DNA from: Singulisphaera sp.
GTDB taxonomy: Bacteria; Planctomycetota; Planctomycetia; Isosphaerales; Isosphaeraceae
NCBI GenBank assembly: GCA_027451445.1
Contig: DAIDJG010000307.1
Span: 1 to 37,573 of the forward strand
Reading direction: 5' to 3'
Length of the DNA: 37,573 nt
A program made the translations under genes and the position numbers. This document shows, piece after piece, positions 27,149 to 32,449 of the stretch. Position 1 is the stretch's first letter; the number at the start of each line of letters is the position of its first letter. The notes under the pieces are model-generated. The model worked only from the letters and a program-made list of their open reading frames with translations, ran no database searches and was not told where the DNA came from.

Positions 27149-27547
27149 TTACTGAAGCGTATCCGGAAGCGCCTGAGGCTTGCCTTCCCGGTCGACGCAT
27201 GCCAGAGTGGAATGGCCTTCTGCGAGCAGTGTGCCGTCGCGCAACATCTCGTAACGGTGCACGATCTTGACGTGCGTGACCCGCTCGACGATCGTCCGCA
27301 GGGTGAGCAGGTCGTCGTAATAGGCGGGACGTTTGAACTTGCAACCGATGTCGACGATCACGAGGAAGTGGCCGGCGTCTTCGATCTCGCGGTAGGAAAA
27401 GCCTCGGGCGCGGAGCAGCTCGGTGCGGCCCATCTCGAAGTAGACGAAGTAATTGGCGTGGTGGAGCAGCCCCATGCGGTCGGTTTCCGCGTAGCGGACG
27501 CGGATCTGGATCTCGCCGCGGTCGGCTACGGGTTCGTCGTGCTTCAC
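27149..27547 (-). CDS. YbgC/FadM-type acyl-CoA thioesterase (hotdog fold)
   Basis: 132 residues from a GTG at 27547, preceded by AAGGAG at 7 nt. The GTGA overlap with the stop of the upstream phosphatase indicates translational coupling. The signature YAETDRMGLLHHANYFVYFEMGRTELL contains the catalytic Asp and the His-Ala-Asn of the 4HBT family (usual D..G..Y(H)xNYxxxFE), followed by the hotdog strands VIVDIGCKFKRPAYYDDLLTL and VTHVKIVHRYEMLRDG. It hydrolyses acyl-CoA or acyl-ACP thioesters in the cytoplasm; the chain length is unknown. Last gene of a three-gene unit with two phosphatases. Confidence 0.92.
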   Translation of the reverse strand: MKHDEPVADRGEIQIRVRYAETDRMGLLHHANYFVYFEMGRTELLRARGFSYREIEDAGHFLVIVDIGCKFKRPAYYDDLLTLRTIVERVTHVKIVHRYEMLRDGTLLAEGHSTLACVDREGKPQALPDTLQ

Positions 27548-28281
27548 CGCCGCGCTCCTTCCTCTCCCGGCTCGGTCTTGGCCGCGACGGCCTTGGCGTT
27601 CGCATCGGGACGCGTAATGACGACTAGCGGGAACGGGTCGTAGGGCCATTGCTCGCGTCCGGGCGTGCCGGGCTCGAACTCCTCGTTTGCCCACAGGCGA
27701 AAGTGGTCGGGTGTGTGGGGCAGGCCCGACTTGCGCAGCCAGGCCTCGTACTGGTCGAGGTGCTCGATCGTTAGCTTGCCGTCACCCGCCCTCACGAACA
27801 AATAGCGGAGCGAGAACTGCGCCTCGGCCTGTTCCAACGTCGAGCCCGGTTGCAGCAGCTCAGCGCACGCTGAGGCAAGCCCCGTGCGCTCGGCACCGCG
27901 CCAGCAGTGAATCAGAACCGGTCGTTCGCAGGTGTCAAGCGTTTGAATCAGAGTACGCATCTGGGCCCGCGACATCCATTCGCACGACGACATGGCGATA
28001 TCAATCTGCGTCGCCCCCGCGCCCAGCACCGCTTTTTTCTCGTCGCGGTACCAGGGCTCGTCCGGGTGGGACCCCCGGAGGTTCAAGACGCTCTTGATGT
28101 TGTGTTTTCGGACCGCGTCGGTCAGGGCGTTCGCGTCCATCTGGCCCGAGCGGTAGAGACGGCCTTCCTCAACGATCGCGAAGTTGTCAGTTGCCAGGTT
28201 CCAGCCGACGAATCCGAACGGGGGCACGAGCAGCAGCACAAGCGACCGGAGCAGCCATTTTCGTATGCGAGTTCCGCGCAT
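27544..28281 (-). CDS. Membrane-anchored dual-specificity-type phosphatase 2
   Basis: 245 residues, with GGAAGGA about 10 nt before the ATG. One N-terminal transmembrane segment (LLRSLVLLLVPPFGFVGWNLA) is followed by a cysteine-phosphatase domain: VLNLRG (about 65-70) and the P-loop HCWRGAERTG with Cys126 and Arg132 (Cx5R). The general-acid Asp cannot be placed with certainty. The tail beyond 180 (PDHFRLWANEEFEPGTPG) is not typical. By the positive-inside rule the domain would face the periplasm, but this is inference. It starts 3 bases after the preceding phosphatase gene ends and overlaps the thioesterase by 4 bases, so one operon. Confidence 0.87.
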   Translation of the reverse strand: MRGTRIRKWLLRSLVLLLVPPFGFVGWNLATDNFAIVEEGRLYRSGQMDANALTDAVRKHNIKSVLNLRGSHPDEPWYRDEKKAVLGAGATQIDIAMSSCEWMSRAQMRTLIQTLDTCERPVLIHCWRGAERTGLASACAELLQPGSTLEQAEAQFSLRYLFVRAGDGKLTIEHLDQYEAWLRKSGLPHTPDHFRLWANEEFEPGTPGREQWPYDPFPLVVITRPDANAKAVAAKTEPGEEGARR

Positions 28282-28284
28282 GGG

Positions 28285-28872
28285 TCAGCGTCCTTCCGTG
28301 AACGTTCCGGCGTACTGACGTTCCCGCTCGCGTGCTTCGAACGCCTTGATGAGCCTATGATCTTCCCGATCGGCGGGGGCGTCGGGCCGGGCCCAGGGGA
28401 GGCTCGCCACCTCATTCCATGCCCGCTCCGCCGACCATCCTTCATGGCGGATACGGTAGGCGGCGTGGACGAGGCTCGTTCTGTGGTGGCCGGCGACGCA
28501 GTGAAAGAACACCGGCTGCTTGCTGGGGTCGGCGAGGAGGTCCGCCGCCTCAGCCATCTGTTCGAGCGTTGCGCTCGACCCGCGCATCGGGACAAGGACC
28601 CAGTTCACTCCGGTCTGTTCGACGACCTTCGCCTGCGTGACGTATTTCGGGTCGTCTCGATTGATTGCCGTGAGTGTAACGATCGTGCGGATGTTCTCTC
28701 GGTTGATCAAGCGCGCGAGGGCACTCGGCTTCTGCCAGGCCCCTCGAATCAGGTGACCGGGGATCACGGCACGGGCGCGCTTGGGAAACCAGTGGTCCCA
28801 GAGCGCAACAGCGACGAGGGTGGACAGAAGCGTCACACCCAGTGTCAACCCGACGATCCGTCGACGGCTCAC
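28285..28872 (-). CDS. Membrane-anchored dual-specificity-type phosphatase 1
   Basis: About 195 residues from a GTG at 28872, which gives a clean basic-then-hydrophobic anchor (SRRRIVGLTLGVTLLSTLVAVAL); a longer ATG start at 28911 is possible. The P-loop FFHCVAGHHRTSL has Cys125 and Arg131 (Cx5R), and IRTIVTLTAINRDDP supplies the strand and loop before it. It is a paralogue of the next gene at low identity: same anchor, same fold. It is probably the first gene of the phosphatase-phosphatase-thioesterase unit, or the fourth if the upstream MBL, Uma2 and antitoxin genes belong to the same transcript. Confidence 0.87.
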   Translation of the reverse strand: MSRRRIVGLTLGVTLLSTLVAVALWDHWFPKRARAVIPGHLIRGAWQKPSALARLINRENIRTIVTLTAINRDDPKYVTQAKVVEQTGVNWVLVPMRGSSATLEQMAEAADLLADPSKQPVFFHCVAGHHRTSLVHAAYRIRHEGWSAERAWNEVASLPWARPDAPADREDHRLIKAFEARERERQYAGTFTEGR

Positions 28873-28965
28873 GCGCAACACCTTACTCCGGCCAGGGTCC
28901 CTCCCGCCCAATGCCGGGGAATTGTAACCGGAACCCCCTGGAGAGCAACCCCAACGGTCGACTGG

Positions 28966-30761: not shown

Positions 30762-32297
30762 TTAACGATTGTCCAGTTTCTCCCGCAGCGCCGCCACCGC
30801 CCGCCGGGGAAACTCCGCCCGCACCACAGCGGAACTGACCGCGACGCGTGTCGCTCCCGCAGCCAACACCTCGTCGATGTTGTCCTCGTTGATCCCGCCG
30901 ATCGCAAACCAGGGTACATTCGTCGTCTCGGCGGCGAGGCGCACGTATGCGAGTCCAGCGAGGTCGGAAAAGTCCTTCGTCGCGCTCGAGAACACCGGTC
31001 CAACGCCGAGATAGCTCGCGCCCGAGACGACCGCCTGGTCAAGCTGGGGCCGGTTGTGGGTCGAAACGCCGATCAGAGCGCGAGGGCCGACGATCCGGCG
31101 TGCGTCGCGGAGCGTCACGTCATCCTGCCCAAGGTGCACGCCGTCGGCGGCGGCGAGGCGGGCGAGGTCGGGGCGGTCGTTGAGGATGAAGCGGGCGCGG
31201 GCCTGGGTGGTGAGAATGCGGACCTCGCGGGCACGGCTCAGCAACTCGCGGTCGGGGAGATTCTTCTCACGCAGTTGGATGATGTCGGCGCCCCCCGCGA
31301 GGGCCTCGTCGACGACCCACGTCAGATCACCCAGCGTCGGCTGGCCGCCAACCAGGACCATCAGACGCGCATCGCCGAGTGCGCGGTAAGCGTTCACGGC
31401 CGTGAGAACGAGCTTCTCCAGTGTGTAGACGTCGTAACGCAAGACCTCGAAGCGGCCTGCGAGCCAGACGTCGACGAGCTTGCTGTACTCTTCGAGCGAG
31501 CGGAGGGCTTCGCCGGTGCGCTTGAAGTTGGCGGTGAGAACGGCGCGGGGGTTCTCTCGCACCTGCTCCGAGGCTGTCATGATGTGCGTGCCGACGTCGC
31601 CAGGCGTATCGCGTGCGCCGATCAGAAGTTCGAGGTCGAGCCCGCGCACGGCTTCGGCCAGACGGTGGCGCACTTCCTTGAGCCGGCGCGTCAGGCCGGG
31701 ATCATCGAGCACGAACCGGACGTAATCCTCGACCACGCGCAGACCCTCTCTCGCGCGGTTGGCCGAGGCGTCGAGCATGCGGCCGAGATCAACCTCCTCG
31801 GTGGGATCAGTCAGTTCCAGGGAAGGCATCTCGCCCGCGATCAGCAGCGGTGCGGCCTCGGCGGCAACGGTTTCGACGAGGCGTTCGCGCAGGGGTTCGA
31901 GCGCCAGGCCTGCCTCGAGCAGGAGTGCATTAACCGATCCTCCCGACGAGAGCAATCCCGCGAGGAGGTGCTCTGTGCCGATCGGCCGCGTGCGATCATT
32001 CCTCCTCGCGTGGAGCTCGGCGTCGGCCAGAACAGCGCGGACGTCGAGCGAGTGGGGAAGCGGCTGCGGGGCCTCGTCATCGTTCGCGTCCAGGACGTCC
32101 GGCGCGCCGAGAGCGGCACGAAGGGCGGCGGGATCGAGTCCGAACTCGGCGAGCAGCAGGGCGGCCCGGCTCTCGGATTCATCCGCGAGGGCTGCGAAGA
32201 GATCGGCCGGCTCAACGGCCAGTGCAGCCCGGGCGCGGGCACGCGCTTGCGATTGGGAGAGGACTCTCGAAGCACCAGCCGTGTACGATTCCAGCAT
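30762..32297 (-). CDS. thiE: Clp_N-ThiD2-ThiE fusion: thiamine phosphate synthase
   Basis: 511 residues from the ATG at 32297; GGGA lies about 10 nt upstream and the Clp_N repeat starts right there. Residues 1-145 form a double Clp_N (Clp repeat) domain: LESYTAGASRVLSQSQARAR and, in the second repeat, RPIGTEHLLAGLLSSGGSV. Residues about 165-290 are a ThiD2 domain: LDASANRAREGLRVVEDYVRF, RDTPGDVGTHI and ANFKRTGEALRSLEEYSKL. From about 305 ThiE follows: DIIQLREKNLPDRELL, RFILNDRPDLARLAAADGVHLGQDD, IGVSTHN, YLGVGPVFSSATK and AIGGINEDNI. ThiE joins HMP-PP and thiazole phosphate into thiamine phosphate in the cytoplasm. ThiD2-ThiE fusions are known; the Clp_N addition is unusual. No TPP riboswitch is visible upstream. 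Confidence 0.88.
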   Translation of the reverse strand: MLESYTAGASRVLSQSQARARARAALAVEPADLFAALADESESRAALLLAEFGLDPAALRAALGAPDVLDANDDEAPQPLPHSLDVRAVLADAELHARRNDRTRPIGTEHLLAGLLSSGGSVNALLLEAGLALEPLRERLVETVAAEAAPLLIAGEMPSLELTDPTEEVDLGRMLDASANRAREGLRVVEDYVRFVLDDPGLTRRLKEVRHRLAEAVRGLDLELLIGARDTPGDVGTHIMTASEQVRENPRAVLTANFKRTGEALRSLEEYSKLVDVWLAGRFEVLRYDVYTLEKLVLTAVNAYRALGDARLMVLVGGQPTLGDLTWVVDEALAGGADIIQLREKNLPDRELLSRAREVRILTTQARARFILNDRPDLARLAAADGVHLGQDDVTLRDARRIVGPRALIGVSTHNRPQLDQAVVSGASYLGVGPVFSSATKDFSDLAGLAYVRLAAETTNVPWFAIGGINEDNIDEVLAAGATRVAVSSAVVRAEFPRRAVAALREKLDNR

Positions 32298-32449
32298 CCG
32301 CGTGGTTCCCGAGAAGCCGAGCGCGACGACCGCGCCGATTCTTGATTTCATTTGGAACGCTGGCCATGATAAGGGGGTTGTCAATAACCTCGCACCTTGC
32401 GCTCGGCTGCGCGAGGTCGGTCCCACCCTCTTAGATGCAGGAACCCACC

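Follow-up and report, generated by a model that had tools for sequence, protein, structure and literature searches.

The window, a stretch of 37,573 nucleotides of DNA from Singulisphaera sp. (family Isosphaeraceae), carries on its minus strand a gene whose product joins ThiD2 and ThiE, two enzyme domains of the thiamin pathway, to an N-terminal double repeat of the Clp_N type. Clp N-domains are generally regarded as parts of unfoldases, and here, in much of one bacterial class, such a domain is part of a biosynthetic housekeeping enzyme. The features at the locus are as follows:

30762..32297, minus strand: thiD2-thiE gene with an N-terminal Clp_N double repeat, 511 amino acids plus stop
31848..32297, minus strand: Clp_N domain, residues 1-150, eight helices (Pfam PF02861 and structure match)
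32109..32285, minus strand: Clp repeat 1, residues 5-63, without the E32-type glutamate, with family-specific R11, E42, S43 and R44
31854..32054, minus strand: Clp repeat 2, residues 82-148, G-T-E-H retained, E109 equivalent to ClpC E106
31806..31853, minus strand: linker, residues 149-164, low confidence (pLDDT <50 at 150-153 and 155-157)
31377..31805, minus strand: ThiD2 domain (predicted HMP-P kinase), residues 165-307 (PF17792 and modelled helices)
30771..31364, minus strand: ThiE thiamine phosphate synthase barrel, residues 312-509 (PF02581, match to 1xi3, alignments)

The open reading frame of 511 amino acids starts with the ATG at 32297, and a second in-frame ATG lies 18 codons upstream, at 32351. 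Pfam recognizes Clp_N in two stretches of the protein (E 1.4e-9, 38.4 bits against a cut-off of 20.7), ThiD2 at residues 173-295 (E 1.7e-41, 142 bits against a cut-off of 23.5) and TMP-TENI at residues 315-491 (E 1.3e-56). The NCBIfam model PRK02615 (thiamine phosphate synthase) matches residues 166-510 with 361.8 bits against a cut-off of 335, which covers positions 9-346 of its 349, and TIGR00693 (thiE) scores 183.7 bits against a cut-off of 145.1; the gene name given by NCBIfam, thiamine phosphate synthase, is silent on the Clp_N domain. Over residues 166-510 the protein thus resembles the bifunctional ThiD2-ThiE enzymes (PRK02615; PF17792 plus PF02581), unfused relatives of which occur in the same phylum, Planctomycetota, but it has about 165 additional N-terminal residues, which make up the Clp_N double repeat. 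In this N-part NCBIfam finds weak matches to ClpG (E 1.8e-5), ClpB (2.1e-4) and ClpV (0.03). Pfam lists seven families up to E 1, none of them AAA; the AAA modules behind the N-domain are missing, and the fused protein is not a Hsp100/Clp ATPase. An upstream RNA switch was considered and rejected at gathering scores, at which Rfam has no match in the window, and none of six neighbouring open reading frames scanned with Pfam is a thiamin gene. Two adjoining minus-strand frames in the window, at 27544-28281 and 28285-28911, each match phosphatase families of the dual-specificity or tyrosine type.

The predicted structure agrees with this layout. A full-length AlphaFold2 model from 21 fused sequences (pLDDT 84.2, pTM 0.62) has eight helices in two N-terminal repeats, a loose linker, a helical ThiD2 part in which residues 232-245 are of low confidence, and a ThiE barrel that matches thiamin phosphate synthases (1xi3, Z 31.4). 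When the N-domain is modelled alone (pLDDT 84.0, pTM 0.79), its best structural match is ClpC (8otk; Z 19.8, rmsd 2.0, 129 aligned residues, 23% identity), followed by a second ClpC N-domain (5hbn, Z 19.0), plant ClpT (4y0c, ClpT2, Z 18.4; 4y0b, Z 17.3), ClpB (1khy, Z 16.5), ClpA (1k6k, Z 15.6) and SMAX1 (9kkx, Z 15.1). A phmmer search of PDB sequences likewise matches residues 90-146 to ClpC1 N-domains (E about 3e-5). As modelled, the N-part has the fold of a ClpC-type N-domain, with the two four-helix repeats of ClpC and ClpB. It differs from them in that no AAA modules follow, identity to the best-matching ClpC N-domains is 22-26%, the E32-type site is lost in nearly all members, and R11, E42 and R44 are conserved positions of its own. 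A chance Clp_N match is ruled out by this fold and by the loci outside the class, where none of 24 scanned N-parts gave a score. The sequence-only reading had described a Clp_N domain with two clear repeats ahead of ThiD2-ThiE, and both the order of the Pfam domains, with Clp_N in two stretches above cut-off, and the ClpC-like fold of the N-domain bear this out.

Is the N-domain really translated as part of the enzyme? The fused protein has a match in 44 of the 45 genomes of the order, and in 40 of them this match begins at residue 1-4 and reaches at least 507. The gene is split over two contigs in G013, where the longer piece has one stop, and runs off a contig end in G036; G018 holds residues 259-508 and a scrap only, and G012 (81% complete) has no match. 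In G043 the fused gene lies in two frames (L057:3128-4668, residues 1-314 and 313-510), which is either a split gene or a sequence error. Of 20 named relatives, whose starts were picked by nearness, 17 have an ATG that corresponds to the one at 32297. In four pairs the dN/dS of the N-domain is 0.31, 0.27, 0.17 and 0.40, and it is undefined in a fifth, these being NG86 estimates with dS >1 in two of the four defined pairs; the same pairs give 0.006-0.09 for ThiD2 and 0.03-0.15 for ThiE. Identity to the window protein in the 20 relatives is 0.22-0.59 for the N-domain versus 0.40-0.96 for ThiD2 and ThiE. The N-domain is therefore coding and under purifying selection that is looser than in the enzyme part, and it evolves several times faster. 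A wrong start or frame artefact is ruled out by the matching ATG, the conservation of the N-domain and this selection. An assembly chimera is ruled out because the fusion is present in isolate genomes, including the finished genome of Singulisphaera acidiphila (NC_019892.1).

The fusion is inherited widely in the class. A pattern-based scan of the contigs of 84,980 species genomes, which reaches close relatives only, found 28 loci, including fusions in Singulisphaera acidiphila DSM 18658, Aquisphaera insulae and Paludisphaera soli and on three Gemmatales contigs; two Phycisphaerae loci match the fused protein only from residue 173 onward. Isosphaeraceae and Gemmatales both belong to the class Planctomycetia, whose families are labelled f1 (that of the window) to f5 below. 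Of the 392 genomes in the phylum sample, 205 have ThiD2, and 40 of these belong to the class of the window (its own and same-family genomes counted). A profile built from Isosphaeraceae N-parts was run on 108 N-part rows and found the fusion in 30 of these 40 genomes: 2/2 of f1, 26/27 of f2, 0/8 of f3, 1/2 of f4 and 1/1 of f5, with a weak score in the f2 genome G351 (E 9e-4). Absence of the fusion from relatives had been named in advance as what would count against it; the named isolates and the frequencies in the order and the class tell the opposite. No fused N-domain was found in 30 rows from outside the class (27 of the 165 ThiD2 genomes plus three named contigs). The open frame before ThiD2 exceeds 100 residues in 20 of these rows and has 68-96 residues in four, and the 24 N-parts thus scanned gave no score (best E 3.4); the other six rows have <40 residues there. 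At E 0.001 the Clp_N model of Pfam finds 19 of the 21 members of alignment A2 (the window and its relatives on named contigs) and only 15 of the 28 fused members from f2, f4 and f5, so that in these families it readily overlooks the fusion. Alignment A1 was made without eight loci, namely L061 and L057/L114 (one gene), in which the frame is broken, L063 and L064 (ThiE only), and L005, L007 and L067 (window duplicates), and 13 duplicate pairs were collapsed; L065 and the Clp loci have no ThiD2 hit.

In a tree of the enzyme part (107 rows, 344 columns; the short L113 dropped), all rows of the class fall together with support of 96/91. The unfused f3 rows and G401 group with the fused G211 and G413 with full support, and this group lies inside the fused rows, whereas the place of the unfused G405 is unsure. 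A single clade of fused rows on the enzyme tree is rejected (p-AU 0.0037) in a quick tree of 57 rows that left out 27 of the 33 f1 rows and 23 of the 30 outside rows, which argues for losses. In another quick tree, made without L101, L104, L109 and L115, the fused N-domains form one group apart from ClpC and ClpB (SH-aLRT 91). Since the N-domains stand together and the unfused rows are nested, the simplest account is that the N-domain was gained once, close to the root of the class, and lost at least twice.

The parent Hsp100 may have been ClpB rather than ClpC. A ClpB profile beats a ClpC profile in 61 of 68 N-domain rows, although this comparison is tilted towards ClpB by the near uniformity of the ClpC set and includes a mis-trimmed ClpB row (L198). 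With L198 excluded, as it also was from the N-domain tree and the residue counts, pairwise scores are better for ClpB in 43 of the 68 rows and for ClpC in 25.

The N-domain could be a weakly constrained passenger, left over from an old accidental fusion, tolerated as harmless to the enzyme and now decaying and repeatedly lost. Such a fate would fit probably two or more losses, the lower identity of the N-domain to that of the window and the 13 of 28 fused f2, f4 and f5 members in which Pfam misses Clp_N at E 0.001. However, dN/dS is well under 1 in the four defined pairs, the domain has been retained in Isosphaeraceae, Gemmatales and nearly all sampled f2 genomes, and R11, E42 and E109 are conserved. 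We consider a passenger unlikely.

The profiles of the enzyme part are intact. Nine ThiE residues (R343, K345, N373, D374, S412, T440, K441, G467 and G468) are invariant in the 21 fused members and in stretches aligned to solved TPS enzymes, in which they have catalytic roles. The fused protein query has a single match in the window genome, which also encodes ThiC (E 1.2e-190). Strong, full-length canonical ThiD (PF08543, E <1e-70) is found in 5 of 40 genomes of a class panel (11 f1, 18 f2, 8 f3, 2 f4 and 1 f5); PF08543 exceeds its family cut-off in 33 of the 40, and all matches beyond the five strong ones are partial and weak (E 3e-13 or weaker), the best in the window genome reaching E 2.8e-10 over about half of the model. 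Because the query match is the sole one, ThiC is present and a strong full-length canonical ThiD is missing, it is probably the enzyme with Clp_N that does the work in the cell, as its HMP-P kinase and TMP synthase. ThiD2 has been described as a version of ThiD that phosphorylates HMP monophosphate but not HMP (PMC12345177, available part), and the same name has been given to a different protein elsewhere (PMC9997740, available part). In the fused protein ThiD2 would phosphorylate HMP-P, and ThiE would join the resulting HMP-PP to thiazole phosphate.

What, then, might the N-domain bind? Going by the available text of PMC12583610, ClpC has two phospho-arginine pockets, in which E32 and E106 are the key glutamates. 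Among 67 fused N-domains (L115 left out), the equivalent of E106, E109, is retained in 65 and that of E32 in four; ClpB N-domains have the former in 22/22 and the latter in 0/22. Judged by its glutamates, the domain is thus not predicted to be a phospho-arginine-binding N-domain of the ClpC kind, failing at the E32 equivalent, and its pattern of E109 kept and E32 lost is ClpB-like and therefore gives no argument for phospho-arginine binding. The fusions also conserve residues that set them apart from ClpC and ClpB alike, namely R11 (62/67), E42 (63/67), R44 (55/67), S43 (53/67) and G8 (53/67); of these, R11, E42 and R44 suggest that one particular surface has been kept. A family match to the McsB-type ATP:guanido kinases is present once in each of the 40 panel genomes and in none of 14 controls; the one that was checked exceeds the NF002194 (protein arginine kinase) cut-off but not that of NF053707 (McsB). 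Since every panel genome has a match, phosphorylation of proteins on arginine may be widespread throughout Planctomycetia. One can imagine on these grounds that repeat 2 reads phospho-arginine through a pocket of the pArg1 type, so that arginine-phosphorylated proteins or tagging by McsB would steer the enzyme in stress. Retention of E109 and the ubiquitous McsB-family match would suit this idea, but the same glutamate in all ClpB N-domains makes it non-diagnostic and the E32 equivalent is rare, so we regard it as very improbable.

The Bacillus subtilis control was matched in the search for canonical ThiD, with neither a Clp_N nor an McsB-family match. The species is known to have both, and the control genome may be incomplete at these genes.

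ClpS is found in 23 of the 40 panel genomes, namely all of f1 (11/11), f3 (8/8), f4 (2/2) and f5 (1/1) and the unfused f2 genome G405; none of the 17 fused f2 genomes has it. ClpS is thereby ruled out as an obligatory partner of the fused family.

The surroundings of the gene provide another clue, a new observation made here. When the places of ThiD2 and Clp_N were compared in each panel genome, 22 of the 40, about half of the panel, proved to have a Hsp100 gene next to thiD2E and on the other strand (f1 0/11, f2 14/18, f3 6/8, f4 1/2, f5 1/1). Of the two f3 exceptions, one (G397) has the genes a few kb apart and the other (G318) is cut by a contig end. The DNA was read in 18 of the 22 cases, and the neighbour is ClpC because it is 74-78.5% identical to an 872-residue frame of the window genome that combines two Clp_N with AAA and UVR domains. 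The start of ThiD2 lies 0.28-1.86 kb from the clpC ATG in the 17 measured cases, always on opposite strands. Outside the class the adjacency was seen in 0 of 30 genomes; it could have been missed at contig ends in the 24 that have the genes on different contigs, and in the six with both genes on one contig the nearest are 9 kb apart (G229). Fusion and a clpC neighbour do not go hand in hand in the panel: 14 genomes are adjacent and fused, eight adjacent and unfused, 16 fused with the genes apart, and two neither (one being G318 with its contig end), and all 11 f1 genomes retain the fusion though clpC lies elsewhere.

In G301 a frame of 278 residues that has Clp_N in three stretches but lacks an AAA part (L149:3816-4649, minus strand) sits between clpC and the fused thiD2E, on the clpC strand. 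This ClpC-like frame and the head-to-head genes had hinted that the domain came from a local inverted duplication of the 5' end of clpC. The sequence gives no support to such a source, as the domain is no closer to ClpC than to ClpB and the adjacency also occurs without the fusion.

We propose, tentatively and with a probability of about 0.4, that the N-domain is a docking module on a bifunctional HMP-P kinase/TMP synthase, likely for a partner from the ClpC/Hsp100 system. The bifunctional enzyme would have gained a Hsp100-type N-domain, most simply once, near the base of Planctomycetia, and most of the lineages seen would have kept it as a non-catalytic module for docking proteins. Through a surface of the Clp_N type it would bind a partner, and because of the clpC neighbourhood the most likely one would be ClpC itself or a client or adaptor bound by the N-domain of ClpC; the amount or availability of the enzyme would thereby be tied to the ClpC/ClpP system. 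The Clp_N call and fold, the spread of the fusion through the order, the class and named isolates, dN/dS of 0.17-0.40 in four defined pairs of five, the family-specific R11, E42 and R44, the head-to-head clpC in 22/40 panel genomes versus 0/30 outside, and the probable status of the fused protein as the working enzyme all point in this direction. On the other side stand the adjacency being untied to the fusion, the lack of the N-domain in 10 of the 40 class ThiD2 genomes together with its faster evolution, the absence of ClpS from 17 fused genomes, and a parent that was possibly ClpB (61/68 by profile, 43/68 pairwise).

A narrower proposal of the sequence-only reading was that the stability of the enzyme could depend on the Clp protease. 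The neighbouring clpC and the McsB-family match in every panel genome speak for it; an E32-type glutamate in only 4/67, the missing ClpS, the possibly closer ClpB parent and a domain probably lost at least twice speak against it. The other suggestion made there, that the domain was borrowed for binding, matches the evidence about as well.

Borrowing need not involve Clp components at all. The N-domain could serve self-association, hold ThiD2 and ThiE together, or bind another thiamin enzyme such as ThiC or ThiG for the hand-over of intermediates, a docking or assembly role that ranks close behind docking to the Clp system and that, taken by itself, is somewhat unlikely. The fold is known away from an ATPase: solved plant ClpT1/ClpT2 and SMAX1 share it, and ClpT1/ClpT2 are stand-alone accessory proteins of the ClpP core. 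Mycobacterial ClpC2 also has Clp_N on a protein without an ATPase, and it does other work, in that it binds cyclomarin A, represses its own gene and acts as an antibiotic sponge; the available part of the source describes the rest of ClpC2 as a four-helix dimerisation domain, not an enzyme (PMC10030653). vWA proteins of MoxR systems fused to ClpN repeats carry them on a non-ATPase domain too, but these rare fusions are components of conflict systems, unlike a biosynthetic enzyme (PMC7159879, available part). A Clp-unrelated job would also suit the family-specific conserved charged residues and the loss of the ClpC E32 site in nearly all members. It leaves the clpC neighbourhood in 22 of 40 panel genomes unaccounted for, however, and none of the six scanned neighbours in the window is a thiamin gene.

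If the N-domain does dock Clp components, a metabolic enzyme would be physically coupled to the cell's own protease machine; if it docks none, another job for the Clp_N fold would come to light. Carried furthest, docking to the Clp system would mean that thiamin synthesis in Planctomycetia is wired to proteolysis, the N-domain recruiting the enzyme to ClpC or competing for the clients and adaptors of ClpC, so that the last shared step to vitamin B1 follows the ClpC load; the divergent clpC-thiD2E pair would have come first and the physical link with the gain of the Hsp100 N-domain. This extension we think quite improbable. A distant parallel is that THIC of the thiamin pathway is among the proteins trapped by chloroplast CLPC1 (PMC8889267, available part).

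In keeping with the statement of the sequence-only reading that no description of the architecture was known, a literature search, with subscription papers mostly outside it, found no published account of Clp_N joined to ThiD2-ThiE; a domain database may already list it.

Further Clp_N proteins without an ATPase exist in genomes of the class. In three of them, frames of 424, 156 and 277 residues (L160:1122-2393, L161:1387-1854 and L162:1206-2036) have two, two and four Clp_N stretches, respectively, and no AAA match. A different small frame, of about 200-270 residues, adjoins clpC on its thiD2E side in f3, f4 (G401) and f5 (L143-L148, L151); it has a membrane-like start, lies mostly between the two genes and, in the one case scanned, has TPR matches.
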